Part shown: in pieces, positions 1,903 to 23,331 of the stretch
How positions within the stretch are numbered: the stretch's first letter is position 1
Layout of the letters: the number at the start of each line of letters is the position of its first letter
Assembly (NCBI GenBank): GCA_025057055.1
Contig: JANWYF010000207.1
Location: forward strand, 1 to 32,545
Direction of reading: 5' to 3'
DNA from: Rhodovarius sp.
GTDB lineage: Bacteria; Pseudomonadota; Alphaproteobacteria; Acetobacterales; Acetobacteraceae
DNA: 32,545 bases
Position numbers and translations under genes: made by a program
The notes under the pieces: generated by a model
What the model was told of the DNA's origin: nothing
The model's database searches: none
Seen by the model: the letters and a program-made list of their open reading frames with translations, nothing else

Positions 1903-1922
1903 GGCAGGCCTCCGGCCCCACC

Positions 1923-1951
1923 TGTCTAGACCTTTGGCCAGGCCGCGTCAC
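1923..1951 (-). promoter_or_regulatory. Putative sigma70-type promoter of the amidohydrolase-chromate transporter operon
   Basis: On the minus strand GTGACG (1951-1946) and TAGACA (1928-1923) are separated by exactly 17 bases. The expected transcript would begin about 15 bases upstream of the gene start at 1902, leaving room for the GGAGG ribosome binding site. Seen by eye; no start-site data. Confidence 0.45.
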
Positions 1952-1980
1952 CGCCCAGGGCCCCCCGCTTGATCCGGCAG

Positions 1981-2007
1981 AGCGATCGACCATCTGGCAA
2001 GCGATCG
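1981..2007. repeat. Paired AGCGATCG direct repeat
   Basis: The octamer AGCGATCG occurs at 1981-1988 and again at 2000-2007, 19 bases start to start (close to two helical turns). Each copy contains the palindrome CGATCG. The pair lies between the putative amidohydrolase promoter and the small membrane-peptide gene at 2024, a position suited to a regulator binding site. No regulator gene is adjacent, and short CG-rich repeats can arise by chance in this genome. Confidence 0.3.
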
Positions 2008-2023
2008 GGCGGAGGAGCCTCGG

Positions 2024-2170
2024 ATGATCGTCAGGACCATGCTGGCACCGGTGTTGATCGCGCGCTGTGCGGCGCGGCTTGGCTTTGCCGCGGGAGCCTT
2101 GGCCGGGGTGGCCGGGGTGATCAGCCTGTGCGCCCTGAGCCGCGCCTGCCGCCGGCGCCAGGGCGCGTGA
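2024..2170 (+). CDS. Small single-pass membrane peptide, 48 residues, unrecognised
   Basis: An ATG-initiated frame encodes a 48-residue peptide starting MIVRTMLAPVLIARCAARLG and ending in CRRRQGA. It is preceded by a strong Shine-Dalgarno sequence (GGAGGAG at 2011-2017, six bases before the ATG), stronger than that of many longer genes here. Residues about 6-38 are largely hydrophobic with alanine/glycine-rich runs, consistent with one membrane helix. The arginine-rich C-terminus would favour an inside location of that end. There is no family match I recognise. It sits alone between the divergent amidohydrolase operon and the convergent lolD, and a different, longer frame covers the same DNA without comparable signals. 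The case rests on the ribosome binding site plus hydrophobicity. Confidence 0.5.
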   Translation: MIVRTMLAPVLIARCAARLGFAAGALAGVAGVISLCALSRACRRRQGA

Positions 2171-2233
2171 TCACGCCGGAAGGCTGATCGGGGTCATCGC
2201 GCAGGGGGGCAGCTGCGCCTGTCCTGCTCGATC

Positions 2234-2273
2234 GGTGCTGCCGCCTCCTGACAGCGCCCGCGGACGCCGGCGC
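2234..2273. terminator. Weak overlapping hairpins between the small ORF and lolD
   Basis: In the plus-strand RNA GGTGCTG (2234-2240) can pair with CAGCGCC (2252-2258), one G-U pair, 11-base loop. In the minus-strand RNA GCGCC/GGCGC at 2254-2273 can pair with a small loop. Either could end transcription of the flanking convergent genes. Neither has a T-run, so support is weak. Confidence 0.25.
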
Positions 2274-2284
2274 CGACTGCTCCC

Positions 2285-3040
2285 TCAACGCCCCACGACC
2301 AGGGCGGGCATCACCCTGCCCTCGCGGATCGTCAGCGCCCGGTCCATCCGCGCCGCCAGTTCCGGATTGTGGGTGGCAATCAGCGCGCCCAGGCCATGGG
2401 CGCGGCTTTCGGCCAGCAGCTCCTCGAAGACGCGGCTGCCGGTGGCAAGGTCCAGATTGCCCGTCGGCTCATCGGCCAGCAGCAGCCGCGGCCGGTTGGC
2501 GAGGGCGCGGGCGATGGCGACGCGCTGCTGCTCCCCGCCGGAGAGTTTGCCCGGCCGGTGCGACAGCCGTTCCGCCAGACCGAGGCGCGAGAGCAGCTCG
2601 CGCGCCCGGGCTGCCGCCGCTGCCCGCGGCGTGCCGGCGGCAAGCTGCGGCAGCAGGACATTCTCGAGCGCGGTGAACTCCGGCAGCAGGTGGTGGAACT
2701 GGTAGACGAAGCCGATCCTCGACCGGCGCAGCGCCGTGCGCGCGTCATCGGGCAGGGTGCCGGCCGCCCGGCCTTCGATCAGCACCTCCCCCGCATCGGG
2801 GCGTTCGAGCAGGCCGGCCAAGTGCAACAGCGTCGATTTTCCGGTGCCCGAGGGGGCGATGAGGGCCACGATCTCCCCCGCGCGGAGCGTGAGCGAGGCA
2901 TCCTCGAGCACGGTCAGGATCCCGGCCTCGGTCCGGAAGCGCCGGGCCACCCCGCGCAGTTCGAGCAGCGGCGGGTCGGTCGCCGGGATCGAGGCTGCGC
3001 CCCCCGGCTGTGCCGTGACGCCGGCGGCCCGTTCATTCAT
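2285..3040 (-). CDS. lolD: Lipoprotein-releasing system ATP-binding protein LolD
   Basis: A 251-residue ABC ATPase that powers extraction of outer-membrane lipoproteins from the inner membrane together with LolC/E. P-loop APSGTGKST is at residues 62-70 (alanine at its first position instead of glycine). Next come a Q-loop in [17 protein letters not shown], which is typical of LolD, the signature LSGGEQQR, Walker [13 protein letters not shown], and the H-loop in IATHNPE. The first 22 residues are a low-complexity extension before the ABC core. The ATG overlaps the end of lolC by 8 bases (3033-3040), so the two subunits are translationally coupled. It is the last gene of the coxG-moxR-lolC-lolD unit. 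Confidence 0.95.
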
Positions 3041-4283
3041 GGCGCAGCATCACCACCGGATCGGTCCGCGCCGCGCGCCAGGCCGGATAGATGGTCGCCA
3101 GGAAGGAGAGGACCAGGCCCATGCCGACCGCCTGCGCCACATCGACCGGATCGACCACCGCCGGCAGCTGGGTGAGGTAGTAGACCTCGGGGCTGAAGAG
3201 TTCGGTGCCCGAGAGCGATTGCACGAGCTGGCGGATCTCCTCGATGTGGGCGCAAAAGAGCAGGCCCAGGGCGAAGCCGATCGCGGTGCCGGCCACGCCG
3301 ATCGAGGCGCCGGCGAGCAGGAAGATGCGCAGGATCGCCCCGCGCGTCGCCCCCATGGTGCGCAGCACCGCGATATCGCGCCCCTTGTCCTTGACCAGCA
3401 TGATCAGGGAGGAGACGATGTTGAAGGCGGCGACCAGGATGATCAGCGTCAGGATCAGGAACATGACGTTGCGCTGCACCTGGACCGCGGCGAAGAAGCT
3501 GCTGTTGAGCTCCTGCCAATCGAGGATGCGCACCGGCATTCCGGCGGCGGCCCGGATCGCGGCATGCGCGGCGCGCGGGCGGGTCGGATCGGCCAGGAAC
3601 ACCTCGATCTGGTGCGCGGCATCGCCGATCTGGAAATAGCTCTGCGCCGCCGCCATCGGCAGGAAGACGAAGGCGCTGTCGTATTCGTGCATGCCGACTT
3701 CGAACAGCGCGACCACGCGGAAGGCGCGCAGGCGCGGGATCGTGCCGATCACGGTCGCCCGCCCCTGGGGCGAGACCAGGGTGATGCGATCCCCGACCGC
3801 GAGGCCGAGGCGGAAGGCAAGCCGGGTGCCGATCACGATCGCATCCTCGCCCCGGAACTCCTCGAGGCTGCCGGCGCGGATATTCTCGGCGATGATGCGC
3901 CGGGCGCGCAGATCCTCCGGCCGGATGCCGCGCGCGATCCCGCCCGTCGCCCCGCCGGCTTCGGAGGTGAAGAGCACCTGTCCCTCGACGATCGGGGTGG
4001 CGGAGACGACCCCCGGTGCGGCGCGCAGCCGTTCGGTGAGGGCGACCCAGTCCGACAGCGGCGTGCGGTCGGCCGCATGAACGCCGAGATGGCCGTTCAG
4101 CCCCAGGATGCGGGTCAGCAGCTCCTCGCGGAAGCCGTTCATCACCGACATCACGATGATCAGCGTGGCCACCCCGAGGGCGATGCCGATCAGCGAAAAG
4201 ACGGCGATGATGGAGACGAAGCGTTCCCCCTTGCGCGCGCGCAGATAGCGGAAGGCCACCATCCGTTCGAAGGCGTCGAACAT
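3033..4283 (-). CDS. lolC: Lipoprotein-releasing system transmembrane protein LolC/LolE
   Basis: A 416-residue inner-membrane permease of the LolC/E family, normal length. The start [20 protein letters not shown] (ATG 4283-4281) matches the family N-terminus. The first membrane helix follows ([20 protein letters not shown]), then a large periplasmic MacB-like domain to about residue 265, then three C-terminal helices in the FtsX-type permease domain. The frame runs open far upstream, but those residues do not resemble LolC and overlap the moxR gene. The ATG lies 22 bases after the moxR stop. A single LolC/E-type subunit is encoded here, as in many alphaproteobacteria where a homodimer (LolF-like) is assumed. 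Not stress-related to the cox genes by any known mechanism. Confidence 0.94.
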
Positions 4284-4305
4284 CAGGCAAGCCCCGCGCG
4301 ATGGG

Positions 4306-5202
4306 TCATGAGGCGGCGCGCGCCTCCGCCACCAGCCGTGCCGCCTCGGCCCCGCGCAGGCGCGCGATGTCGTCCTGGTATTTGAGGAGCACGCCGATCG
4401 TCTCCTCGACCAGGGCGGGGGAGAGATCCTCGGCGTTGAGGGCCGTGAGGGCCTGGGCCCAGTCGATGGTCTCGGCCACGCCGGGCAGCTTGAAGTAATC
4501 CCCCTGCCTGAGCTTCTGCACGAAGGCGACGACCTGGGCGGAGAGCTGCTCCCCCACCTCGGGCGCGCGCAGGGCCAGGATCGCGCGTTCCCGCGCGGCC
4601 GAGGGGTAGTCCACCCACTGGTAGAGGCAGCGGCGGCGGATCGCGTCATGCACCTCCCGCGTACGGTTGGAGGTGATGACGACGATCGGCGGCGTCTCGG
4701 CGCGGATGGTGCCAAGTTCCGGGATGGTGATCTGGAAATCGGCCAGCACCTCGAGCAGGAAGGCCTCGAAGGGCTCGTCGGCGCGGTCCAGCTCGTCGAT
4801 CAGCAGCACCGCCGGCGGGCCGGAGAGGGCGGCCAGCAGCGGCCGTTCGAGCAGGAACTCGCGGCTGTAGATGTCAGGGCGGGCACCGCCCTCGGCCATC
4901 CGAATGGCCAAGAGCTGCTTGGCCGCGTTCCACTCGTAGGCGGCCGCGGCCAGATCGAGCCCGTCATAGCACTGCAGCCGAACCAGCCGCCGCCCCAGCC
5001 CCGCGGCCAGCACCTTGGCGATCTCGGTCTTGCCGGTGCCTGGCTCCCCTTCGAGGAACAGCGGCCGGCCCATGACCAGCGCCAGGAAGATCACCGTCGC
5101 CAGGGCCCGGTCGGCGACATAGCCCTGGGCGGCGAGCAGCGCCTCCGTCTCCTCGACGCTGGCCGGCAGGGGGCGGGGGGCGGGGGTGGCTGGGCTGTCC
5201 AT
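4306..5202 (-). CDS. MoxR-type AAA+ ATPase, CoxD-like
   Basis: A 298-residue AAA+ ATPase of the MoxR group. Walker A GEPGTGKTE is at residues 52-60, Walker B LLIDELDR at about 133-140, sensor-1 Asn at 179 (VITSNRTRE), and the arginine-finger region RRRC at 189-192. CoxD of aerobic CO dehydrogenase clusters is an AAA+ chaperone that acts with CoxE in maturing the [CuSMoO2] centre. Other molybdenum hydroxylases (xanthine dehydrogenase-like enzymes) use related CoxD proteins. The ATG (5202-5200) overlaps the coxG stop by one base (TGATG). No CoxE (VWA protein) follows; lolC does. No molybdenum hydroxylase subunits are in the window. CoxD-like is chosen because of the adjacent coxG; a general MoxR chaperone is the alternative. 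Confidence 0.87.
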   Translation of the reverse strand: MDSPATPAPRPLPASVEETEALLAAQGYVADRALATVIFLALVMGRPLFLEGEPGTGKTEIAKVLAAGLGRRLVRLQCYDGLDLAAAAYEWNAAKQLLAIRMAEGGARPDIYSREFLLERPLLAALSGPPAVLLIDELDRADEPFEAFLLEVLADFQITIPELGTIRAETPPIVVITSNRTREVHDAIRRRCLYQWVDYPSAARERAILALRAPEVGEQLSAQVVAFVQKLRQGDYFKLPGVAETIDWAQALTALNAEDLSPALVEETIGVLLKYQDDIARLRGAEAARLVAEARAAS

Positions 5203-5807
5203 CAGGTCGAGAGGAAAAGGAGGTAGAGCACCCAGAGGAAGAGGAGGCTTCCGATCCAGAAGGCGAGAGGCATGCCGGCAAACTCCTTGGGGATGAGGCT
5301 GAGCATCGACAGACCGGGGGCCGGGGCCGGGGCGGCTGGCTGTTCGGCCGCCGGGGCCGGCGAGCTGGCCGCCAGCTGCGCGGCGAAGCGGTCGAAGAAC
5401 TGATCCGACATCTGCTTGGCGGTGGCGTCGATCAACCGGGCGCCGAGCTGGGCCATCTTGCCCCCGACCTGGGCCTTGGCGGCATAGGTCAGGCGGGTCT
5501 CCTGCGGGCCGTGCTCTTCCAGCCGGACTTCGGCGCTGCCCTTGGCGAAGCCCATGGCCCCTCCCTGCCCCTCTCCGGAGATGATGTAGCGGGCGGGTGG
5601 ATCGAGGTCGGAGAGCGCGACCTTGACCGTAAAGCGCGCGGCCATGGGGCCGATCTTGAGGGCGACGCGGGCCGTCAGCTCGGTGTCGGAGTGCTTCTCC
5701 AGCGCCTCGCAACCCGGAATGGCCGCCTGCAGCACGGCAGGGTCATTGAGCGCGGCCCACACCCTCTCCCGCGGGGCGGGGATCAGCCGCTCGCCGGTCA
5801 TGTCCAT
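5202..5807 (-). CDS. CoxG family protein (carbon monoxide dehydrogenase subunit G, SRPBCC fold)
   Basis: A 201-residue protein. Residues 1-145 form a CoxG/SRPBCC domain: opening GERLIPAPRERVWAALNDP, the PGCEALE segment, and the VGGKMAQLGARLID region typical of the family. A proline/alanine-rich linker (about 147-165) follows, and a C-terminal membrane helix (about 181-199, LAFWIGSLLFLWVLYLLFL). CoxG recruits CO dehydrogenase to the cytoplasmic membrane in Oligotropha, and the membrane tail is the expected anchor. The ATG at 5807 has GGAGGTG eight bases upstream (5822-5816) and a promoter-like sequence at 5838-5866. It heads the unit coxG-moxR-lolC-lolD. Its molybdenum hydroxylase partner must lie elsewhere. 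Confidence 0.9.
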   Translation of the reverse strand: MDMTGERLIPAPRERVWAALNDPAVLQAAIPGCEALEKHSDTELTARVALKIGPMAARFTVKVALSDLDPPARYIISGEGQGGAMGFAKGSAEVRLEEHGPQETRLTYAAKAQVGGKMAQLGARLIDATAKQMSDQFFDRFAAQLAASSPAPAAEQPAAPAPAPGLSMLSLIPKEFAGMPLAFWIGSLLFLWVLYLLFLST

Positions 5808-5837
5808 GATGCGCGCACCTCCATCGCTGCCCGGGCG

Positions 5838-5866
5838 GTATTACGGGTGGCGGGCGCCGCTGGCCA
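5838..5866 (-). promoter_or_regulatory. Putative promoter of the coxG-moxR-lolC-lolD unit
   Basis: Minus strand: TGGCCA (5866-5861), a 17-base spacer, then TAATAC (5843-5838), which is the most consensus-like -10 in the window. The gene start is at 5807, leaving a leader of about 25 bases that contains the GGAGGTG ribosome binding site. Divergent from prpB. Confidence 0.5.
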
Positions 5867-5875
5867 GGGGGGATG

Positions 5876-5905
5876 CTGCCGCGGCTGCCCGATCCGGGCT
5901 ATGAG
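5876..5905 (+). promoter_or_regulatory. Putative prpB promoter
   Basis: CTGCCG (5876-5881), an 18-base spacer, TATGAG (5900-5905). The prpB ATG is at 5935 with a purine-rich GGAGGGAGGTG ribosome binding site between. The -35 match is poor. Confidence 0.35.
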
Positions 5906-5934
5906 CGCCCCCATCTGCAGGAGGGAGGTGCGAG

Positions 5935-6858
5935 ATGCCCTACATCGTCGGTGAGGATCTGCCCACGGCACCGGCCGGGGAGCGTTTCCGCGCCCTGCTC
6001 GAGCGGGGGCGAATCCTGCAGATGCCGGGAGCGCATCTCGGCCTGGCCGCGCTGCTCGCCAAGCGCCAGGGCTTTGAGGCGCTCTACATCTCCGGTGCGG
6101 CGATGTCGGCCACCATGGGCCTGCCTGACCTCGGCATGATCACGATCGAGGATGTCTGCTTCCACATCCGCCAGGTGGTGCGCGCCGCCATGCTGCCCGT
6201 GCTGGTGGACGGCGATACCGGCTATGGCGAGGCGCTCAATGTCATGCACATGGTCCGCTGCTTCGAGGAGGCGGGCGCGGCGGCGGTGCACCTCGAGGAT
6301 CAGCTGCTGCCCAAGAAATGCGGCCACCTCAACGACAAGAAGCTCGCCCCGGCCGGGGAGATGGCCGCCAAGATCGCAGCGGCGCGCAAGGCGCGGCGGC
6401 ATCTCTACATCATCGCCCGCACCGATGCGGTGGCCAGCGAGGGGATGGATGCCGCCATCGACCGGGCCAAGCGCTACCTGGAGGCGGGGGCGGATGCGAT
6501 ATTTCCCGAAGCGCTGACCAGCCGGGAGATGTTCGTCGAGTTCGCCCGCCGCCTGCCGGGGGTGAAGCTGCTCGCCAACATGACCGAGTTCGGGCGCACC
6601 CCGTTCTTCACCGCCGCCGAGTTCGAGCAGATGGGCTATGCGATGGTGATCTGGCCGGTCTCCCACCTCCGCGTCGCGGCCAAGGCCTGGGAGTCGCTCT
6701 ATGCCGAGATCCGCGCCGAGGGCGGCACCCACAAGAGCCTCTCGCGGATGCAGACGCGCGCCGAACTCTACGAGACGATCGGCTACCACGACTACGAGGC
6801 GCTGGATCACAGCCTGATCCGCACCGTCCTGCCGGAGGCCATGGCGCAGCAGCCGTGA
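5935..6858 (+). CDS. Isocitrate lyase / PEP mutase superfamily protein, 2-methylisocitrate lyase-like
   Basis: A 307-residue TIM-barrel carbon-carbon lyase. Magnesium-binding VDGDTGYG is at 91-98 and HLEDQ at 119-123. The catalytic loop KKCGH is at 127-131, with the KxCGH cysteine (C129) that marks the true lyases of the superfamily. The closest characterised enzyme is PrpB, which splits 2-methylisocitrate to pyruvate and succinate in the methylcitrate cycle. Relatives also include oxaloacetate decarboxylase and 2,3-dimethylmalate lyase, so the substrate is open. No prpC or prpD is adjacent. The ATG at 5935 follows a strong AGGAGGGAGGTG. Its stop overlaps the GTG start of the next gene by 4 bases, so it is co-transcribed with the deacetylase-like gene. 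Confidence 0.88.
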   Translation: MPYIVGEDLPTAPAGERFRALLERGRILQMPGAHLGLAALLAKRQGFEALYISGAAMSATMGLPDLGMITIEDVCFHIRQVVRAAMLPVLVDGDTGYGEALNVMHMVRCFEEAGAAAVHLEDQLLPKKCGHLNDKKLAPAGEMAAKIAAARKARRHLYIIARTDAVASEGMDAAIDRAKRYLEAGADAIFPEALTSREMFVEFARRLPGVKLLANMTEFGRTPFFTAAEFEQMGYAMVIWPVSHLRVAAKAWESLYAEIRAEGGTHKSLSRMQTRAELYETIGYHDYEALDHSLIRTVLPEAMAQQP

Positions 6859-7961
6859 CGGCGCCGCTGCTCATCGCCTCCGAGATCTATCGCGGCTCCT
6901 CCTATGGCCCCAAGCATCCGCTGGCGATCGAGCGCGTCCCGCCTACCCTTGACCTGATCCGCGCCCTGGGCTGGTTCGACCCCGCCCGCTATCGCGAGGC
7001 GCCGGTTGCGACCGTGCCCGAATTGGCGCGCTTTCACAGCCTTGACTACATCGCCGCGCTGCAGCGGGCCGAGGCGACGCAGCAGGTGAGCGCCGCCGAC
7101 CGCGCCCGCTTCCGGCTGGGGGCCGATGGCAATCCGATCTTTCGCGAGATGTTCCGCCGCCCGGCCACCGGGGCAGGCGGCGTGCTGGCCGGCGCCAGGC
7201 TGACCTTGGGGGGCGGCATCGCCCATATCCCGGGCGGGGGGACGCATCACGGCAGGCCCGACCGCGCGGCGGGCTTCTGCTACCTCAATGATTGCGTGCT
7301 CGGCATCCTCGCCTGGCTCGATGCCGGGGTTGCGCCCATCCTCTATGTCGACATCGACGCCCATCACGGCGATGCGGTCCAAGATGCCTTCCACGACGAG
7401 GATCGGGTCTTCACCCTCTCGGTGCATGAGGCGGGCCGCTGGCCCTTCACCGGTGCGGCGGATGACCGCGCCGGTGGCGCCGCGCTCAACCTGCCGCTGC
7501 CCCCGGGGGCGACCGATGCCGATCTGTTCGCCCTGCTCGATGGGGTGATCCTGCCGCTCGCGCAGCGCCTCAAGCCCCAGGCGATCATGATCCAGGCCGG
7601 GGCCGATGCGATCGCGGAGGACCCGCTCTCCCGCCTCGCCTTCTCTAACGCGGCGCACCGGGCGGTGGTGGCCGCGCTCCAGCCGATGGCGCCGCGCCTG
7701 CTGCTGCTGGGCGGCGGCGGCTATAACCCGTGGTCGGTCGCGCGCTGCTGGACGGCGCTGTGGGGCGTGCTTAACGGCTGGTCCGCGCCTGACCGCCTGC
7801 CGGCGGCGGCCGAGGCCGTGCTGCGCCGGCTCTCGCTCGACCGCGCGGTCGGCCGCCACCCGCCCGAACATTGGTTCACCACCCTGCATGATCCGCCGCG
7901 CCTGGCTCCGCTGCGCGAGGAGACCCGGGACCTGCTCAGGCGGCATGCCGCCGTGCCATGA
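6855..7961 (+). CDS. Histone deacetylase-like amidohydrolase (AcuC/HDAC superfamily)
   Basis: A 368-residue zinc hydrolase of the arginase/deacetylase fold, starting with GTG at 6855 inside the prpB stop (GTGA). All catalytic positions are present: HH at 131-132 (GGGTHHGR), zinc ligands D168 and H170 in DIDAHHGD, the third zinc ligand D251 in QAGADAIAEDPL, and the transition-state Tyr 290 in LGGGGYN. Bacterial members include AcuC (removes acetyl from lysine of acetyl-CoA synthetase) and polyamine or acetoin-linked deacetylases. With a lyase of acyl metabolism directly upstream, protein deacetylation controlling a CoA-dependent enzyme is a reasonable guess. Nothing in the sequence fixes the substrate. 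Confidence 0.92.
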   Translation: MTAPLLIASEIYRGSSYGPKHPLAIERVPPTLDLIRALGWFDPARYREAPVATVPELARFHSLDYIAALQRAEATQQVSAADRARFRLGADGNPIFREMFRRPATGAGGVLAGARLTLGGGIAHIPGGGTHHGRPDRAAGFCYLNDCVLGILAWLDAGVAPILYVDIDAHHGDAVQDAFHDEDRVFTLSVHEAGRWPFTGAADDRAGGAALNLPLPPGATDADLFALLDGVILPLAQRLKPQAIMIQAGADAIAEDPLSRLAFSNAAHRAVVAALQPMAPRLLLLGGGGYNPWSVARCWTALWGVLNGWSAPDRLPAAAEAVLRRLSLDRAVGRHPPEHWFTTLHDPPRLAPLREETRDLLRRHAAVP

Positions 7962-7967
7962 TGGGCC

Positions 7968-8462
7968 ATGCGTCGCCGTCCGCTTCTCTCCTTCCTGCTC
8001 ATCGCCCTGCCCCTGCCAGGGGCTGCCCAGCCCGGGGTGGATCGGCCCCAGCCCCGACTGCCGACGGAGGAGCTCTACATCCTGACCCGCGATGGCCGGC
8101 GCCATCGCTTCGTGGTCGAGATGGCGGTGGACCCCGCCCAGCAGATGATCGGTCTGATGTTCCGCCCGAGCATCGGGCCAGATGAGGGGATGCTCTTCGA
8201 CTGGGGCAGCCCGCGCGAGTCCAGCATGTGGATGCGCAACACCCTGGTCAGCCTCGACATGCTCTTCATCGCCGCCGATGGACGCATCCACCGCATCGCC
8301 GAACGCGCGGTGCCGCTCAGCTTGGAGACCATCTCCTCCCGCGGGCCGGTGCGCGCCACGCTCGAACTGGCCGCCGGCACGGTGGAACGCCTCGGCATCC
8401 GGGTGGGTGATCGGGTGGAACACCGCATCTTCAATGCCGCTCCCGCCGCCTCCGGCCGATAG
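7968..8462 (+). CDS. DUF192 family exported protein
   Basis: A 164-residue protein with an N-terminal signal peptide (MRRRPLLSFLLIALPLPGAA, likely cut after GAA), followed by a complete DUF192 domain. Family hallmarks include QQMIGLMFRPSIGPDEGMLF, the SSMWMRNTLVSLDMLFI core with its M-W-M-(R/K)-N-T motif, and a C-terminal LELAAGTVERLGIRVGD block. The domain is a small beta fold of unknown function, usually periplasmic. The gene begins 6 bases after the deacetylase stop and should be translated from the same message. The function cannot be assigned. Confidence 0.9.
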   Translation: MRRRPLLSFLLIALPLPGAAQPGVDRPQPRLPTEELYILTRDGRRHRFVVEMAVDPAQQMIGLMFRPSIGPDEGMLFDWGSPRESSMWMRNTLVSLDMLFIAADGRIHRIAERAVPLSLETISSRGPVRATLELAAGTVERLGIRVGDRVEHRIFNAAPAASGR

Positions 8463-14827: not shown

Positions 14828-16957
14828 TCAGCGCAGGAAGCCGAGGTAGCCGCGCCCCAGCGCGAGCGCGCTGCCCTCGCGCGAGAGGTCCCAGAGCGGA
14901 TGGTCCACCACCAGCCGCTGCCCGCCATCCCGCTGCACCGGCCTCAGGTTGAGCCCGACCCGGGCCCGGGTGGCGGGGCCGAAGACATCGAGCGGAATGC
15001 GCAGGTAGATGCCCTTGTCGAAGCTGCCTTCGCCGAAGCGGCGGAAGGGCACATTGGTGAAGGTGGCAAAGCCGCCCACCTCGATGCCGTTGTCGAAACG
15101 CCGGCCGAGCTCGATCGTCCCGCCCCAGTCCCCGGCCAGGTAGCGTCCTGCCCGCAGCACCGCGTAGCTGTTCCACCAGGGCGTGTCCCAGTAGAGCGAG
15201 GCGTGTCCGGTCCAGACGCGGTAGGGCAGAAGCCCGAAGCCTTGGGCATAGTCGCGCTGGCGCACCCAGTTGAGATCGACCCCAAGCGCCAGCCGCCCCC
15301 CCGCCGGGCGCCACAGCAGCTCGCCTGAGAGGCCGGCAAACATCGGCTCGAGCAGCCCCGCGGTCAGCCGCGCATACCAATCGGGCGCGGGGTTCCACAG
15401 CCCCTCCAGATAGAGGGCGGGCAGGCTCGTCCGCCCCTCCCGCGCATAGCGGGCGAAATCGCTGCGCACCCGCGGCAGCACGGAATCGCTCGGCAGCCCG
15501 GCATCGAGGTTCTGCGCCAGGATCTGCTGCACCGACCCGGCAAGCGCGAAGCCCCCGCCGAGCGACAGCCGCGCCCCGGCCGCCACCCCGGCCTGGTAGC
15601 GCAGCGCCGCCGTCGGATCGCCCACCACCAGGTTGAGCCGCGGCTCCACCCCCCAGGAGAGGCCGAGCGGTGCCGCGGCGAAAGCGCTGCGGAACGGTCG
15701 GGCAGGGAGGATTTCGGCCGTCGCATGGATCTCCTCGGCGCTGCCCGCCCCGCGGGCGGCGGCCTCGAACCCCCCCCGCAGCAGGGCGATGCGGCCGATG
15801 GCGGCACCCTCCTGCTGCCAGATCACCTCGACCCGCTCGACCTCGGCCGGCAGATGCGGCTGGGCTGCGCGCAGCACCCTGCCTGCCACCTGGGCGAGGC
15901 TCCGATACCGCCCGCCGGAGACGGCGATGACGGCCGTCAGCCCGCGGATCTCCAGCCCGATCGGGCGGAAGCCGGCCTCCCGCAGGGCCGGGAAGAGGGC
16001 AGCGGCGACCGAGGCCTCGCTCCAGGCCGCCACCGGCGCCGGCCGCGGAGCGAGCGGGGGGCTCGGCGGGCGCGGCAGCAGGAGGGGCGGGGCATGGGGA
16101 TCGAGCCGGGCCGCGATGCGGAAGATCGCATCGCTCCCGTGCACGAAGGCCGCACCGAACTCGAAGTGCTCGGTCTGCCAGGCCAGGCCGGCATGGACCC
16201 GGCTGCGCGCAAGCCCCGTCAGGCCGGTGGTGCGGGCGGGATAGCCGCCGCGTTCGTCGCGCAGCGCATCGGCCGAATACTCGAGCTTGAGCCTGAGGCC
16301 AGAGAGCCTCCCGGCCGGGGTGGAGATGGGCGGCAGCGCATATTCCGCCCCGGCGAAAATGCCGGCGCGGGGCCCGCGGAAGAGTCCCTCGATGCCGGGC
16401 AGACCACCCTGCCCCACCCGGCGCGGACGGGTCTCGAAGGCGGGGTGGAGAAGGCCGAGCGGGTTGCGCAGATCCCCCCCGGTGCCGAGCCTGCCCCAGC
16501 CGAGCCCCAGGCTCAGATCCAGATCCCAGAAGCGTTTCGAGGCGACCACATACTCCCCGGCGTAGATGCCGGTGCCGATCGCATCCTGCAGGCCCACCAC
16601 CACGGCGGGGCGCCAGGCATCCTCGGTCAGCAGGCGCAGCCGCAGGTCGAAGGCGCGGTCGCTGCTGCGCCCGAAGCCGCGGGTGGCGTTGAGCCGGTCG
16701 GCGATGCGGAAAGTGGCCTCCAGGAAGGGCAGCGCCTGCCAGCTGACGAACCAGAAGCTACGGTCGCGGCGGAGCGAGATGCCGGTCTCGATCGTCCCAT
16801 CGGGCCGCATGCGCGCGTTGCGCATCTCGATCAGGCCGGCGCCGCCGAAGTTCGATCCGCTGGGCTCGATCGCCTCCTCGGCGCGGGCGGGCGGGGCGGA
16901 TCCGGCCTCGGCCAGCAGGAGAAGGCAGAGCGCGGCCGCCGCCCGCGCCCGCCTCAT
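14828..16957 (-). CDS. YjbH-family exopolysaccharide outer-membrane protein
   Basis: A 709-residue protein, close in size to E. coli YjbH (about 700). The signal peptide (residues 1-26, cleavage near ARAEE) is followed by SGSNFGGAGLIEMRNARMRPDGT, the family opening. A long beta-strand-rich region with alternating aromatic strands follows, consistent with an outer-membrane barrel. The C-terminal block (KGIYLRIPLDVF and the RPVQRDGGQRL region) is typical of the YjbH domain. In E. coli the yjbEFGH operon is required for an exopolysaccharide, and YjbH is the probable outer-membrane component. The ATG overlaps the upstream SLBB protein stop (ATGA), so both are co-translated. The middle region (about residues 290-430) contains a proline-rich linker and a periplasmic domain. 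Confidence 0.88.
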   Translation of the reverse strand: MRRARAAAALCLLLLAEAGSAPPARAEEAIEPSGSNFGGAGLIEMRNARMRPDGTIETGISLRRDRSFWFVSWQALPFLEATFRIADRLNATRGFGRSSDRAFDLRLRLLTEDAWRPAVVVGLQDAIGTGIYAGEYVVASKRFWDLDLSLGLGWGRLGTGGDLRNPLGLLHPAFETRPRRVGQGGLPGIEGLFRGPRAGIFAGAEYALPPISTPAGRLSGLRLKLEYSADALRDERGGYPARTTGLTGLARSRVHAGLAWQTEHFEFGAAFVHGSDAIFRIAARLDPHAPPLLLPRPPSPPLAPRPAPVAAWSEASVAAALFPALREAGFRPIGLEIRGLTAVIAVSGGRYRSLAQVAGRVLRAAQPHLPAEVERVEVIWQQEGAAIGRIALLRGGFEAAARGAGSAEEIHATAEILPARPFRSAFAAAPLGLSWGVEPRLNLVVGDPTAALRYQAGVAAGARLSLGGGFALAGSVQQILAQNLDAGLPSDSVLPRVRSDFARYAREGRTSLPALYLEGLWNPAPDWYARLTAGLLEPMFAGLSGELLWRPAGGRLALGVDLNWVRQRDYAQGFGLLPYRVWTGHASLYWDTPWWNSYAVLRAGRYLAGDWGGTIELGRRFDNGIEVGGFATFTNVPFRRFGEGSFDKGIYLRIPLDVFGPATRARVGLNLRPVQRDGGQRLVVDHPLWDLSREGSALALGRGYLGFLR

Positions 16958-19689
16958 CGCCGGGCGATCACCGCCAGCGCCGCGGCCGAGATCGCGACCT
17001 GCCCGAGCACCGCCGAGGCATCGCGCAGCAGCCCCCAGGTCTCGTAGGGGGAGGGATCCTGCGGCACCACGATCAGCGAACCGGGCGGGACGGGCGGCCC
17101 GCCCGCTTGCCAGGCACCCAGCCCAGCCGGCACCGAAGTGCCGTTGGGCAGCACGATGAAGGCGCGCGAGGGGTCGGCAAAGCGCTGGGTGCCCCCGGCC
17201 GCGCGCACATACTGGGCGGCGCGCCAGCCGCTCTGGAACTGCAGGCTGCCGGGGTTGAGCACGCTGCCCACCACCGTCACCTCGTTCGGGCGCTTGGGCA
17301 TCACCAGCAGATCGCCCGGTTCGAGCAGGATATCGAGCTCGGGCCGGGCGGCGAGCACGACCGGATTGGCCTCGACCACCAGACGCCCGGCGGCGCGGGC
17401 CTCGCGCAGGGCGGCGGCCATCTCGCGGCCAGCGGCGATCGCGCCGGCAAGATCGGCGCTGCCGCTGCGGTTGCCGATCACCGCCTGGCCGGCGGCCACC
17501 TGCATCAGGCCCATCTCGAGCTCGCGCGCCATGCGCTGGAACCCCTCCTGCTGGCGCTGGCGCACGCTCTCGCGCGTCAGCACGGCGCCGTAGGGGTAGG
17601 CCTGGGGCGTCAGCCCCCCGGCCCGGGCGATGACTTCCGACAGGCGCTCGCCGCGGCGGATGTCGTAGACGCCGGGGCGGAGGAACTCGCCCAGCAGGGT
17701 GACCGGGCCGGCGTCGCGGTCGGTGAAGCCGCGCGGAATGCGCAGCGTATCGCGCGGGGAGAGGCGCACGGCGGCGAAGTTGCGGCTGCGCAGGTCGAGG
17801 ATGGCGCGCGAGAGCGGGACCGCCCCGCTGCCCTCCACCGGCTCGCGCGTCAGCTCCACCGCCGCCAGGTCGGCCGCGTCCGTGACCTCGCCCGCCACCT
17901 CGAGCAGCGCATCGAGGCCGGTGTTGTCGAGCACCGGATAGAGGCCGGGCAGCCGCACCTCGCCCAGCAGCAAGACGGCATGATCGAGCAGGAAGGGCAG
18001 CAGGGAGGGGTAGTCAAGGAAGAGCTGCGGGCAAGGCGTGGTGCCGAAGTCGGGAAAGCCCGCCGCCCGGGCATGGGCAAAGCGCTGCGGGGTGCTGCGC
18101 GCGGCCACCACGAGCTGGGTCAGGGCCGGGCATTCCGCGGCCAGATTCGCCCCCGGCCGGCCCTCGGCCTGTCGGGCGGCCGCCAGCGGCTCCACCCCCT
18201 CTCCGCGCAGGGCGCGCTGGACCGAGGGGCTGGTCAGCCACAAGACGTCGGAGAGGCCGATCAGGATCACCTCATCGCCCTCCTGCAGGCGGATGTCCGG
18301 TCCGCCGGCCATCAGCCGGCCGAGGTCGAAGGGGATCAGCCGGCGCAGCCGCGTCACCGGATCGGCCCGCCAGATCACGCCCATGCGGATGTAGGGATCG
18401 GGGCGCAGAAGGCGCGGGTCCGACAGCAGCCCGCGCAGCGTGGCGCCACGGCCGGCGCTGGCGCGGGTGAGCTGCGTCGTGACATGGCCGGCCAGCCGCA
18501 GCCCGCCTGCCTGGGCATCCACGCCCGGCTGCACCAGCAGCGCATCGCCTCGGCGCAGCGGATCGCGCGGCCCGATCTCGCGAAAGGCGCGGCGGCCTTC
18601 GGCATCCGTGGTCTCGAGCAGGAAGCGATGCCCCGAGGGGCGCAGCGTGTTCCCAGCCAGCCTCAGCATCGCCGCCAGGGGGGCCGAGGCAGCACCCGGC
18701 GGCAGCTCATAGATGCCGGGGCGCGCGACCTCCCCCCCGATCGCCACCACCCCGCCCACCGGGGGCACCAGGATGCGCTCCCCCTCGCGCAGGGTCAGGT
18801 CGGGCGCTGGCCCCTCCCCACCCGCGATCACGGGATAGAGGTCGATCACCCTCTGCCCGACCTGGATCGCGCGCAGGCTGCCGGTGCGCCGCGGCCCGCC
18901 GGCGGCGATCAGGGCATCGAGCACATTGGCGAGCGGCGAGAGGACAACCATGCCGGGGCGCATCACCTCTCCGCCCACGAAGACCGCCACTTGGCGGAGC
19001 TGGCCGATCGAGACGTAGACCTCGCTGCCCGGCAGCTCGCGCGCCACGCGCTCCTCGATCTCGGCGCGCAGGGCGCGCAGGCTCCGCCCGGCGGCTGGGA
19101 TCGGCTGCATATCGGGCGGCAGCAGCAGCCCCTCGCGGGTCACGCGCAGGCTCACGCTCTGCCGGGTGCGGCCGCGGAAGGTCAGGATCACTTCGTCATC
19201 GCGGCCGATCACGTAATCCTCCGGCACCGCGCCGAAGCCCACGCCGGTTGCCGCCTCGCGCTCGGCGCGGAAGCCGTCGTAGCCGAACTGGCGCAGCGGG
19301 GTGGTCAGGCGTGCGGCGAAGAAGGCCTCGACGGGAGAGAGCGGCTCCTCCCGCGCTGGTGGTCCGACGGGTGGGGCCGGCTGGGCCTGGGGATCCGGGG
19401 CTCGCCCGGGCGGGCTGCGCTCCGGCAGGCCGGGCAGGGGCGGCGGCGGGGGGGCCAGCGCGCCTGCTCCGCGCCCCGCCCCGGCATCGAGCAGGCGCTG
19501 CAGGATCTCCTGCTGCGCGGTGGGAGAGAGGCTGGGCAGCGGCGCCCCGCCCGGCAGAACGGGGGGCAGCGAGGGCGGGGCCAGCACCGTCCCGCCACCG
19601 CCTGGCGTCTGTCCCTGCGCCGCCGGCGGCAGACAGAGCACCGGCAGCAGCACGAGGGCGAGGATCAGACGAAGGCGGCGGCTTCTCAT
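16954..19689 (-). CDS. Large polysaccharide export protein with multiple SLBB domains
   Basis: A 911-residue periplasmic/outer-membrane polysaccharide export protein, more than twice the size of Wza. The signal peptide ends at about residue 26 (no lipobox cysteine in the right place), followed by a proline-rich linker (about 30-115). A Poly_export domain lies near 155-235 (VPEDYVIGRDDEVILTFRGR). At least five SLBB repeats are recognisable by their G-E-V-x-x-P-G-x-Y cores at 239-247, 319-327, 576-584, 667-675 and 808-814. Residues 700-780 are helical, and a weak C-terminal hydrophobic segment ends the protein. The start (ATG 19689) is chosen from the signal peptide; the frame is open well upstream. 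A GGAGAG lies immediately before it. It is operonic with yjbH and divergent from the heparinase-like gene. Confidence 0.9.
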   Translation of the reverse strand: MRSRRLRLILALVLLPVLCLPPAAQGQTPGGGGTVLAPPSLPPVLPGGAPLPSLSPTAQQEILQRLLDAGAGRGAGALAPPPPPLPGLPERSPPGRAPDPQAQPAPPVGPPAREEPLSPVEAFFAARLTTPLRQFGYDGFRAEREAATGVGFGAVPEDYVIGRDDEVILTFRGRTRQSVSLRVTREGLLLPPDMQPIPAAGRSLRALRAEIEERVARELPGSEVYVSIGQLRQVAVFVGGEVMRPGMVVLSPLANVLDALIAAGGPRRTGSLRAIQVGQRVIDLYPVIAGGEGPAPDLTLREGERILVPPVGGVVAIGGEVARPGIYELPPGAASAPLAAMLRLAGNTLRPSGHRFLLETTDAEGRRAFREIGPRDPLRRGDALLVQPGVDAQAGGLRLAGHVTTQLTRASAGRGATLRGLLSDPRLLRPDPYIRMGVIWRADPVTRLRRLIPFDLGRLMAGGPDIRLQEGDEVILIGLSDVLWLTSPSVQRALRGEGVEPLAAARQAEGRPGANLAAECPALTQLVVAARSTPQRFAHARAAGFPDFGTTPCPQLFLDYPSLLPFLLDHAVLLLGEVRLPGLYPVLDNTGLDALLEVAGEVTDAADLAAVELTREPVEGSGAVPLSRAILDLRSRNFAAVRLSPRDTLRIPRGFTDRDAGPVTLLGEFLRPGVYDIRRGERLSEVIARAGGLTPQAYPYGAVLTRESVRQRQQEGFQRMARELEMGLMQVAAGQAVIGNRSGSADLAGAIAAGREMAAALREARAAGRLVVEANPVVLAARPELDILLEPGDLLVMPKRPNEVTVVGSVLNPGSLQFQSGWRAAQYVRAAGGTQRFADPSRAFIVLPNGTSVPAGLGAWQAGGPPVPPGSLIVVPQDPSPYETWGLLRDASAVLGQVAISAAALAVIARR

Positions 19690-19715
19690 CTCTCCGGCTG
19701 GACCCAGTTCATCAT
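19686..19715 (-). promoter_or_regulatory. Possible 9-codon leader frame overlapping the SLBB gene start
   Basis: On the minus strand ATG ATG AAC TGG GTC CAG CCG GAG AGA TGA ends so that its TGA overlaps the SLBB ATG (ATGA). The main start has its GGAG only two bases away, which is short, so coupling to such a leader is possible. It may equally be chance. Confidence 0.2.
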
Positions 19716-19745
19716 TCCGGCGACGTATGCAACCATCGCGCGAGC

Positions 19746-21197
19746 ATGGCCAGTAGATTAGCGTTGATGTGGGACGCCGCCATGCGGCTTGGCCCACGCC
19801 CGGTGGTGCTGGCCGCCTGGGGCAAGGGGCCGGGCCGATGGCTTGCCGCCCGGCGCCTGCGCGCAGAACAGCAGGATCTGCTGCGCCCCGGGCAGGATAT
19901 CCGCCCGCTGTGGGAGGCCGCGCGCTGGACCGACCTGCCGGCCGAACCGCGCGCGGCGGCGGAGGCCTGGATGGCGGCCCATCCGCCCTTCTCCGGCCCG
20001 CATTGGCAATGCGGACAGGAGGCGGCGCTGCGGCTGCTCCAGCTCGCTTTGCGCCTGGCGCCGCCGCTGCCGGACTGGGCACGCCCGATCATCACCGCCC
20101 ATCTCCGCCGCATCCAGGCCAATCCGGCCTATGCCCTGGCGCAGGACAACAACCATCCGGTGAGCGAAGCCGCGGGGCTGCTGGCCGGCGCGCTGCTGCT
20201 CGGCGATCCGGCGCTGGCCCGCCGTGCCTCCATTCGGCTTGACCGCGTGACAGCGCGGCTGGTGGCGGCGGATGGCAGTTTTGCCCAGCCCTCTCCCTGC
20301 TACCACCGGTTGATGCTCGATGTGCTGACGGCGGCAGAGCTGCTGCGCCGCCGCTGGGGCGGCCCTCCCGCAGCACCCGGCACCCTGGGCCGGGCGGCGG
20401 CGGCCACGCGCTGGCTGGCCTGGGTCGCCTGCCCGCAGACCGGCGCCCTGCCTCGCATCGGCCATCAGGACGACAGCGCCTTCGACGGCAGCGCCGATGC
20501 GCGCGGCAGCATCGCCCGCGCCGCCGCCCTCTTCGGGGATCCCGGCCCGGCGCCCGACCGCTGGGAGGGGGGCTGGCTGCGCGGCTGGCAGGCGGCCGGT
20601 GCCCGCGTCCTGCTGCGCCGTGGCCCGCTGCGCTTCCGCCCGGCCCATGCCGATCTGCTGCACCTCGAGCTCTGGGACGGCGCGGCCCCGCTGCTGCGCG
20701 ATGCCGGCAGCGGCGCCTACAACCCGCCGCCCGAGTCGCGCTGGTGGCTGTCCTATTTCTGGTCCACGGCCGCCCACAACACGGTCGCCTTCGACGGGGA
20801 GGATCAGATGCCGCGCCTGTCCACCTTTCTGCACGCGCATTGGCCGCGCTGCGGGACCACCGCCGACGGCGGGGCGGATTGGCTGGAGGATGCGCGCGGC
20901 CGGCGTCATCTGCGGCAGGTGGAAGCGGCCGGGCGCCGCTGGCTTGTGATCGACCGTCTGTCAGGCCCCTATCGCGAGGCGGCGCTCTATTGGCACCTTG
21001 CCCCGGCCGATTGGCGGCTGCTGCCGGATGGGGTCGAAAGCGGGCGAGCGCGCCTGCGCATCGCCGGCGAGGGAGAGATGACGGTCAGCCTCGAGCAGGG
21101 ATGGCACAGCCCGCGTTACGGGGTGGTCGAGCCCTCGCCAGTGCTGGTGGCGCGCGGGCGGGTGGGCGGCTTCGTCACCCGGGTGGAGCTGCCCTGA
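19746..21197 (+). CDS. Heparinase II/III family protein
   Basis: A 483-residue putative polysaccharide lyase. The N-terminal alpha/alpha-toroid includes AQDNNHPVSEAAGL (about 135-148), with the conserved NNH/E motif, and SPCYHRLMLDVL (about 181-192) with the family tyrosine. The C-terminal beta-sandwich Hepar_II_III domain includes the hallmark LLRDAGSGAYNPP and STAAHNTVAFDGEDQ (about 339-353), the latter with the conserved histidine. There is no obvious signal peptide. Family enzymes eliminate uronic-acid polymers, but many alphaproteobacterial members are uncharacterised. Placed head to head with the SLBB/YjbH export genes, with 56 bases between, it is likely to act on the same polysaccharide. 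The start is ATG 19746, with a weak ribosome binding site; ATG 19767 is an alternative. Confidence 0.88.
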   Translation: MASRLALMWDAAMRLGPRPVVLAAWGKGPGRWLAARRLRAEQQDLLRPGQDIRPLWEAARWTDLPAEPRAAAEAWMAAHPPFSGPHWQCGQEAALRLLQLALRLAPPLPDWARPIITAHLRRIQANPAYALAQDNNHPVSEAAGLLAGALLLGDPALARRASIRLDRVTARLVAADGSFAQPSPCYHRLMLDVLTAAELLRRRWGGPPAAPGTLGRAAAATRWLAWVACPQTGALPRIGHQDDSAFDGSADARGSIARAAALFGDPGPAPDRWEGGWLRGWQAAGARVLLRRGPLRFRPAHADLLHLELWDGAAPLLRDAGSGAYNPPPESRWWLSYFWSTAAHNTVAFDGEDQMPRLSTFLHAHWPRCGTTADGGADWLEDARGRRHLRQVEAAGRRWLVIDRLSGPYREAALYWHLAPADWRLLPDGVESGRARLRIAGEGEMTVSLEQGWHSPRYGVVEPSPVLVARGRVGGFVTRVELP

Positions 21198-22200: not shown

Positions 22201-23331
22201 TCACCCGGCTGCCGGGGCCGCGGCCAGCGCCGCAAAGGGCAGATCCGGCCCGCGGGAGACCAGACGGTCGAGCGGACCTCCGGCCTGGGTTCCGACCAGC
22301 ATGGGCCGGCGCAGCCCGGGCAGGACCGCGATGTCGTAGAGTTCGCGCACCACACCGCCGAGGCGCAGCGTGTGCCGGACCTGCCCGGTCGCCAGGTCCA
22401 CCGCCACCACGGCGCATTGCGGCTCGAGCTTCCTCTCCTGGAGCTTGGCCTCCAGCGGAAGGTCGCTGAAGGTCGCATCCGCCCGCGGCAGGGAGAGGCC
22501 GACCAGCGCGCAGCCGCCGGCAAAGGCAAGCCCGCGCGCAAAACCAGGCAGGAAGCAGATCGGCCGGAAGCACCCGGCATCGGTGTCGACGAAGCCGAAC
22601 TCCCCCGTCCCGGCATTGAGGAGATAGAGCCGGCCCTCATGCAGCCGGGGCGAATGCGGCATGGTCAGGCCACGGCAGATGATCTTCCCATCCGGCACCG
22701 AGAGCACGACGCCGCTGCCTTCGCGCCGGTCCCGCCAGCCGCGAGGGGTGTCGGTCTCGGCCGCCGCGGTCACGTAGCGCGGCAGGCCGTTCCGGTCGGT
22801 GGCCAGGCCGTTGAGGTGGCAGCGGTCCTGCGGCGCCAGGGCGGTGATGAAGGGCGGCTGCCAGATGCGGCGGAAGCTCGCATCCTCATCCACCGCGGCC
22901 AGGCAGGAGAAGAGCGTGTTGATGAAGACCGGCCGGCCGGAGGGTGCGACCGCCACGTCATGGGCCTGCACATCGCCGGTGAACCAAGCGATGCGGGGGA
23001 GGAAGACGGCATCATGCCCCTCCAGCGACTGGCCCGGCGGGATGACATTGGCAAAGCGCCAGATCGCATGAAGCCCGGCGAGCACGAGCCCGCCCTGCCG
23101 ATCCGGCGCCACCCCCAGGCAGCGCTGGAAGGTGCGCTCGCAGACCGAGAGGGTCTGCGGCGTATCGGCCCCGATCAGGAACAGCTTGCCGATCTGGTAG
23201 GTGGTGACGGCGAGCGCCACGCCGGCCGCATGCAGCCAAGCTGCGAAACCCGGCGAGGCCTCGATCGCATAAGGTGGGGCGCTGTCGCCTTCGGTGCGGA
23301 TGGCGGGTGGGGTGCTGCCGTTGCTGCTCAT
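22201..23331 (-). CDS. TIGR03032 family protein (predicted beta-propeller-like, function unknown)
   Basis: A 376-residue protein matching the TIGR03032 family in general pattern. It opens with FAAWLHAAGVALAVTTYQIGKLFLIG near 29-54, then the FQRCLGVA segment, the LHAIWRFANVIPPG block (about 86-99), DVAVAPSGRPVFINTLFSCLA near 124-144, CHLNGLATDRNGLPRYVTA near 169-187, and a C-terminal ELYDIAVLPGLRRPMLVGTQ. Repeated strand patterns suggest a propeller fold. There is no signal peptide or membrane helix, and the biochemical function is unknown. The ATG at 23331 is chosen because homology starts soon after; the open frame continues 116 codons upstream with low-complexity sequence. It converges on the SLOG gene. 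Confidence 0.75.
   Translation of the reverse strand: MSSNGSTPPAIRTEGDSAPPYAIEASPGFAAWLHAAGVALAVTTYQIGKLFLIGADTPQTLSVCERTFQRCLGVAPDRQGGLVLAGLHAIWRFANVIPPGQSLEGHDAVFLPRIAWFTGDVQAHDVAVAPSGRPVFINTLFSCLAAVDEDASFRRIWQPPFITALAPQDRCHLNGLATDRNGLPRYVTAAAETDTPRGWRDRREGSGVVLSVPDGKIICRGLTMPHSPRLHEGRLYLLNAGTGEFGFVDTDAGCFRPICFLPGFARGLAFAGGCALVGLSLPRADATFSDLPLEAKLQERKLEPQCAVVAVDLATGQVRHTLRLGGVVRELYDIAVLPGLRRPMLVGTQAGGPLDRLVSRGPDLPFAALAAAPAAG

Follow-up and report, generated by a model that had tools for sequence, protein, structure and literature searches.

A polymer-cutting enzyme can be encoded with the polymer's own export genes, as is AlgL of alginate. Here we analyze a locus in which a lyase-fold gene adjoins two export genes, in a 32,545-nucleotide stretch of DNA from Rhodovarius sp., family Acetobacteraceae (GenBank assembly GCA_025057055.1, contig JANWYF010000207.1, positions 1 to 32,545; the window). 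The three genes encode a YjbH/GfcD-like porin, an exporter of the OPX family with SLBB domains, and a heparinase II/III-superfamily protein that we call HEP. Together they probably form the terminal end, for export and processing, of an exopolysaccharide pathway of the Wzy type in roseomonads. The exporter class and the pairing of OPX with YjbH proteins are already known; the new element is HEP.

The closest described export systems are those of the Escherichia coli group 4 capsule (gfcABCDE-etp-etk) and yjbEFGH. In E. coli, according to the accessible text of PMC8592465, the barrel GfcD has GfcC and the lipoprotein GfcB as binding partners. A survey of OPX proteins (Saidi et al. 2022, PMC9603273) gives, in its accessible part, a median length of 824 aa for Class 2B, with YjbH homologs near 19 genes (Table 1), and 1 to 14 SLBB domains for Class 1. 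A literature search with little coverage of subscription journals found nothing on the present gene combination beyond this survey. For HEP, the nearest described enzymes are the PL12 heparinases III, of which 4MMH has the triad Asn240, Tyr294, and His424 (accessible text of PMC12088678).

A Class 2-type exporter and its porin

The window is contig C242 of a 3.07-Mb genome (G000), in an assembly that is 97.5% complete. All three reading frames are open, with their motifs intact. An earlier, sequence-only reading of the window had given coordinates, lengths, an overlap at the yjbH start, and a 56-base divergent gap, and all of these proved correct when the sequence was re-checked.

The SLBB gene (16954-19689, minus strand) encodes 911 aa. 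Pfam finds Poly_export (PF02563, 34.3 bits; cut-off 28), five SLBB stretches (PF10531), in agreement with the "at least five" counted previously, and a GfcC match (PF06251) slightly below cut-off (18.4 bits; cut-off 20). A profile of 27 orthologs matches Wza at positions 163-296 and the GfcC structure 3p42 at positions 734-873 (E 3.9e-7). The AlphaFold model is of moderate quality (mean pLDDT 71.7, pTM 0.42); Foldseek matched it to both Wza and GfcC (3p42, E 3.0e-6), and its strand list can be read as about six beta-grasp units, the GfcC-like part included. The N terminus has a signal-like stretch with a hydropathy peak of 3.2, taken as the mean of the most hydrophobic 12-residue stretch within the first 60 residues. 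An NCBIfam scan gave export-protein matches below cut-off only.

The protein is a member of a known exporter class, with a Class 2-type OPX build, and is not exotic. Of the traits that define Class 2B it has Poly_export, one to six SLBB domains, and a C-terminal GfcC module; its predicted C-terminal helix is a candidate for the Wza_C helix that spans the outer membrane in that class. It shares with the KpsD-type proteins of the class a similar length and, as far as the accessible part of the survey goes, a YjbH homolog nearby. It differs in that Pfam finds no Wza_C match, the GfcC match is slightly sub-cut-off, and the last helix (30 residues, 881-910) has low pLDDT; the sequence of this helix is alike in the 27 orthologs. 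The sequence-only reading had called the exporter giant, which the accessible lengths and domain counts of the OPX survey (PMC9603273) do not bear out; they rule out a protein of unprecedented size.

Two genomes carry an interrupted or truncated form of this gene. In one (L048:about 890-8230, G024:C44), an insertion of about 7 kb with an IS1595-type transposase gene (Pfam) splits the SLBB gene; the short repeat GACCTGGCC stands at both junctions, and the downstream YjbH, WecA-like, and YjbF genes are open. In the other (L098:1-750, G003:C59), only a C-terminal SLBB fragment was found, beside an 88-aa open reading frame at the contig start that looks like an IS21 transposase and to which Pfam gave no match. 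In that genome HEP was not found and yjbH is kept elsewhere.

The yjbH/gfcD-like gene (14828-16957, minus strand; 709 aa) overlaps the SLBB gene by 4 bases at its start. Its product, for which 28 orthologs were aligned, is a predicted outer-membrane beta-barrel porin of polysaccharide export. PF06082 matches over the full length (559.8 bits, residues 34-692, profile positions 2-656 of 658), and the N terminus is signal-like (hydropathy peak 2.25). No credible relative of YjbH turned up when PDB sequences were searched, and NCBIfam has no name for YjbH or HEP.

No separate gfcC-like gene lies beside yjbH; the GfcC-like part sits in the exporter. Because GfcC and GfcB bind GfcD in E. coli (PMC8592465, accessible text), a fused GfcC-like module beside a YjbH barrel makes mechanical sense. 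With the group 4 capsule and yjbEFGH the locus thus has in common a YjbH/GfcD-type protein, a GfcC-like module, and a YjbF/GfcB lipoprotein in the genome; the last is encoded at G000:C134 (L210; PF11102, 62.7 bits), unlinked to yjbH. In the group 4 capsule, separate gfcC and gfcE genes share an operon with gfcD, whereas here the exporter itself carries the GfcC-like part, as a fusion, and the genes are split across several contigs. Moreover, the accessible accounts of those two systems mention no lyase. One family genome (G038; L051 and L072) has two divergent SLBB-YjbH pairs with a YjbF-like gene beside each, and HEP was not found in it; this is possibly a different subtype.

HEP and its linkage to the exporter gene

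HEP (19746-21197, plus strand; 483 aa) is divergent from the SLBB gene, and the two start codons are separated by 56 bases (19690-19745). An alternative in-frame ATG at 19767, which the gene caller chose, would make the spacing 77 bases. By Pfam, HEP carries a Hepar_II_III_C domain (91.4 bits) in its C-terminal half only; likewise, a profile comparison with PL12 (E 7.1e-5) is significant only within that half. The AlphaFold model is confident (pLDDT 91.7, pTM 0.91) and predicts an alpha-toroid plus beta-sheet fold. Its best structural match is PL12 heparinase III 4mmh (Z 28.2, rmsd 5.3, 408 residues aligned, 17% identity); 5jmd scores Z 27.0, and alginate and other uronic-acid lyases rank next after heparinase III.

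A putative catalytic triad of N136, Y186, and H344 was placed through the alignment of HEP with 5jmd, in which the part holding Asn and Tyr is non-significant by itself. N136 and Y186 are conserved in 85 and H344 in all 86 aligned sequences, which comprise 74 public loci, 11 rows from a family sample, and the window, near-duplicates of the same genomes included. The sole exception (L152) is a gap. Six loci for which the gene caller returned no HEP (L121, L145, L148, L162, L164, and L176) were excluded from this count and from the HEP tree. HEP thus resembles PL12 heparinase III (4mmh, 5jmd, 4fnv) in its predicted fold and its Asn-Tyr-His triad; it differs in its low identity (12-17%), its shorter length, the lack of a visible signal peptide, and its place in a biosynthesis locus.

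With respect to location in the cell, no Sec-like signal was found by hydropathy in 25 HEP orthologs, whose peaks range from 0.56 to 1.81 (0.94 in the window). By the same measure, a peak of at least 2 occurs in 14 of 27 SLBB and 23 of 28 YjbH rows, and some of the lower values there are probably due to starts shortened by the gene caller. The sequence-only reading had HEP degrading or trimming the exported polymer, a proposal that finds no support here, as the orthologs show no signal peptide by hydropathy and no substrate is assigned. The lyases of other exopolysaccharide loci, typified by AlgL, share the pairing with export genes; AlgL, in contrast, is exported by a signal peptide and belongs to another lyase family. 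Degradation after export is possible, but the missing signal peptide would be explained equally well by a non-secreted lyase or epimerase that acts while the polymer is assembled.

The linkage of HEP to the SLBB gene is tight. In a sample of 150 genomes from the family, the long SLBB protein is strongly matched (best E <= 1e-60) in 36, while YjbH is found in 34 and HEP in 31; all 34 and all 31 fall within the 36. For HEP and SLBB the co-occurrence gives a Fisher p of about 3e-27, uncorrected for shared ancestry. The five genomes with SLBB and no HEP are G003 (an SLBB fragment), G038 (a more distant SLBB), and G050, G075, and G097, in which SLBB is cut by contig ends or the genome is incomplete. 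HEP and SLBB are divergent neighbors in 28 of the 31; in the other three (G035, G047, and G087) they lie on different contigs, with SLBB at a contig end. YjbH stands directly beside SLBB in 25 of 34 genomes, within 5 kb in two (G075 and G097), and elsewhere in seven. Since YjbH adjoins SLBB in only 25 of 34, HEP is the tighter partner of the exporter gene.

The same arrangement holds in the best 80 of 274 HEP relatives found among named genomes. Almost all of these public loci are from roseomonads or Acetobacteraceae relatives; one (L148) is titled Asaia bogorensis, and several are titled just Acetobacteraceae, Rhodospirillales, or Alphaproteobacteria. In 73 of the 80, SLBB is the divergent upstream neighbor of HEP and no gene is predicted in the interval. 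In the remaining seven the contig ends less than 490 bases from the start of HEP, so that the linkage is seen in 73 of 73 observable loci. The aligned ends of the two genes are 87 to 811 bases apart, or 2049 in L159, where a weakly conserved SLBB start is unaligned; predicted start-to-start distances are 30 to 358 bases in 60 of 67 loci measured and larger in seven. These counts rule out chance adjacency. Of the three-gene linkage originally envisaged across Acetobacteraceae, the HEP-SLBB part stands as one conserved locus, the YjbH part is looser, and the scattering of orthologs that would have spoken against it was not seen in any observable public locus.

Near the HEP start, four congeneric loci (L110-L113) share, by eye, a motif resembling TACAACC-N-ATGGCGAG or AAAGCGAG; the window copy has diverged to TGCAACCATCGCGCGAG (region 19690-19767). 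The motif may belong to a promoter or an operator.

The window genome contains one other heparinase-family match, at G000:C12, beside the ribulose-phosphate 3-epimerase gene (rpe). The notion that HEP is the housekeeping heparinase-like paralog of alphaproteobacteria, placed here by chance, could appeal to the Pfam domain that the two share. The paralog, however, is a separate gene that aligns only in part with HEP, at 26% identity, and has neither the Asn nor the Tyr of the triad, and the 73 of 73 linkage argues further against chance. We regard this explanation as ruled out for practical purposes. Nor is the lyase tied to another locus such as rsmB-purH, the circumstance named beforehand as damaging: the paralog is distinct, and purH is not present on its 7.1-kb contig.

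Outside the family, an SLBB relative (E <= 1e-25) occurs in 46 of 385 genomes sampled from the class, the window's own included, and 20 of the others were examined with stop-to-stop frames, as a gene caller trained on the high-GC window fails at lower GC. YjbH is in the same stretch as SLBB in 18 of the 20. A PF07940 search found heparinase-family genes in 18 of these genomes, all of them outside the stretches retrieved around SLBB; where one shares a contig with SLBB, the closest cases are about 34 and 45 kb away. No close HEP relative was found beside SLBB in any of the 20, a count that concerns close relatives only, because at E 1e-3 the HEP profile missed the housekeeping heparinase that L075 has. 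Since YjbH is there in 18 and HEP in none, the pairing of exporter and porin is widespread in the class, whereas HEP seems to have been added in roseomonads and near relatives.

Synthesis genes in relatives and in the window genome

In most relatives HEP is followed by synthesis genes. Among the best 80 public loci, a Wzz-like gene comes after HEP in 75, a Wzy-like gene (Wzy_C) in 69, and a PglC-like gene (Bac_transf) in 65, and the shortfalls outside L109-L113 lie at sequence ends. Further on, an aminotransferase, two glycosyltransferases, and a UDP-GlcNAc 2-epimerase occur in 37-38 of the 80. The full run, as in three family genomes (G016, G011, and G102), ends with genes for a PglF-like protein, a nucleotide-sugar dehydrogenase, and another aminotransferase. 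That of G005 goes no further than the second glycosyltransferase, and its dehydrogenase ortholog is elsewhere. On the YjbH side of related family loci, a WecA-like gene and a YjbF lipoprotein gene often come next. The Pfam families represented are Wzy_C, Bac_transf, Glycos_transf_4, YjbF, DegT, GT4, Epimerase_2, Polysacc_synt_2, and UDPG_MGDP_dh. Beyond YjbF, four loci (L045, L049, L058, and L067) carry genes for a DctM-type transporter and an NMT1-like binding protein.

The window has none of this. When its 26 predicted genes were clustered with those of relatives, none fell with the Wzz-, Wzy-, PglC-, WecA-, or YjbF-like genes, and a Pfam scan limited to 15 of them found no glycosyltransferase, Wzx, Wzy, or Wzc, as the sequence-only reading had held. 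The only HEP loci without an adjacent Wzz-like gene, among the loci seen, are the window and L109-L113, which group together as a single branch when HEP sequences are placed in a tree (support 100/99, 75 rows). For L112, whose contig ends 270 bases past HEP, the absence is seen only through its own genome, G072.

That synthesis is encoded elsewhere was also correctly anticipated, and the likely block can now be located. In the window genome the Wzz/Wzy/PglC-like block is at G000:C110:2265-4907 (L086), and a run of DegT, two glycosyltransferases, PglF, and DegT is at G000:C118 (L209). Two congeners show the same dispersal, and the displaced blocks and YjbF are kept, the synthesis genes on another contig, in all three Rhodovarius genomes examined. 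An initiating transferase and a Wzy-like gene, beside HEP in relatives and displaced to C110 here, point to a Wzx/Wzy-dependent pathway. In the C118 run the two glycosyltransferase genes have no epimerase between them, and PglF is not separated from the last DegT by a dehydrogenase; an epimerase/dehydrogenase pair at 36-41% identity lies at G000:C247, where the dehydrogenase homolog (38-41%) is beside a UDP-GlcNAc 2-epimerase.

A second sugar cluster is found in this genome at L087:632-8400 (G000:C121), with an initiating transferase, a flippase-like Polysacc_synt protein, and at least two glycosyltransferases; similar genes occur in the two congeners (L107 and L108).

Possible roles of HEP and of the locus

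In the Wzy-type system that we favor, a PglC-like sugar-phosphate transferase would start the polymer, glycosyltransferases would build it, and a Wzy-like protein would polymerize it under a Wzz-like regulator. The polymer would then be carried across the periplasm by the long OPX protein, which combines an exporter with a GfcC-like module, to the YjbH/GfcD barrel and its presumed partner, the YjbF/GfcB lipoprotein. In this scheme HEP is an enzyme dedicated to the pathway and would act by beta-elimination at uronic-acid linkages of the polymer or its fragments. We infer this activity, substrate, and place of action, and likewise that the scattered blocks of the window genome still make one polymer; the conserved linkage, triad, and family membership, the predicted fold, and the absence of the block from the locus of the window's clade come from the sequences themselves.

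Several observations weigh against this scheme. Contact of HEP with periplasmic or exported polymer is unexplained, because it has no Sec-like stretch, and the exporter type does not need HEP, as the 20 loci outside the family show. The Wzz-like label rests in relatives on a GNVR match of 22 bits (cut-off 27.7), and the C110 copy has no Pfam match and only a sub-cut-off match to a chain-length model. Wzy_C is also an O-antigen ligase domain. The genes that could be named in the extended locus (L091/L102) include no flippase, and the one candidate seen, that of C121, belongs to a cluster with its own sugar transferase. A dehydrogenase directly follows the PglF-like gene in 10 of the 23 public loci that reach this point; it was not found in 11 (423-632 bases remaining), and two end there. 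The claim that the locus always has a uronic-acid dehydrogenase was dropped accordingly, and of this possible source of uronic acid Rhodovarius has only the homolog, at C247 in the window genome. Finally, two congeners have a WecA-like ortholog, but none was found for the window genome; the gene may be lost or may be missing from the incomplete assembly.

HEP might be not a lyase but a polymer-tailoring uronyl C5-epimerase, with a lyase fold and proton abstraction followed by rebuilding of the sugar. Human dermatan sulfate epimerase 1 (6hzn) indeed shares the fold of the HEP model (Z 19.7, rmsd 3.5, 405 aligned), and in most loci the Wzz-, Wzy-, and PglC-like genes come after HEP on its own strand, an order that would suit a biosynthetic enzyme. 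Both 4mmh and 5jmd, which are lyases, nevertheless score clearly higher, and we consider an epimerase unlikely. It is possible, if doubtful, that HEP is instead a cytoplasmic recycler of re-imported oligosaccharides of the cell's own polymer, paired with SLBB for shared regulation. The lack of a signal peptide and the divergent, closely spaced starts throughout the group would suit such a role, as would the importers on the YjbH side of some relatives (the four DctM/NMT1 loci and an MFS gene); these importers, however, are several genes from HEP, are found in fewer than half of the 38 loci, and do not occur in the window. Nor is a uronate-catabolic gene among the recurrent clusters that could be named, most clusters being unannotated.

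For the window lineage the three genes could also be an export remnant that serves a different polymer or none. This would accord with a synthesis block away from the locus, the WecA-like ortholog not found, and the two genes missing from C118. The intact frames and motifs argue otherwise, as does the persistence of the displaced Wzz/Wzy/PglC set, the DegT-to-DegT run, and YjbF in 3 of 3 genomes of the genus, and a remnant seems to us improbable. More speculatively, HEP could be an obligatory, non-secreted biosynthetic part of the Wzy-type machine throughout a whole bacterial group. Rather than degrade exported polymer, it would be a uronyl epimerase, or a lyase for proofreading or chain length, whose target at the inner membrane is the lipid-linked repeat or the growing polymer; its divergent pairing with the exporter gene would then have outlived the break-up of the locus.

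If the Wzy-type system is as we propose, roseomonads, mostly environmental and including Roseomonas mucosa (L172), a species with a skin association, gain a defined surface-polysaccharide locus. Its many natural pairs of GfcC-fused exporter and YjbH/GfcD barrel offer a test of how Class 2 OPX proteins hand polymer over to a barrel, and it poses the puzzle of a conserved lyase-fold enzyme that has no signal peptide and is tied to an exporter gene.

Two further features were noted. One kb from HEP (22201-23331, minus strand), the window encodes a strong match to TIGR03032/DUF4915, a family without assigned function; the gene clusters with no gene of the 38 related loci. The same genome has a second exporter system at L073:5878-9371 (G000:C142), which comprises an OPX protein of 559 aa, an ABC ATPase, and a protein with a sub-cut-off Wzz-like match, a set that resembles those of ABC-dependent capsules.

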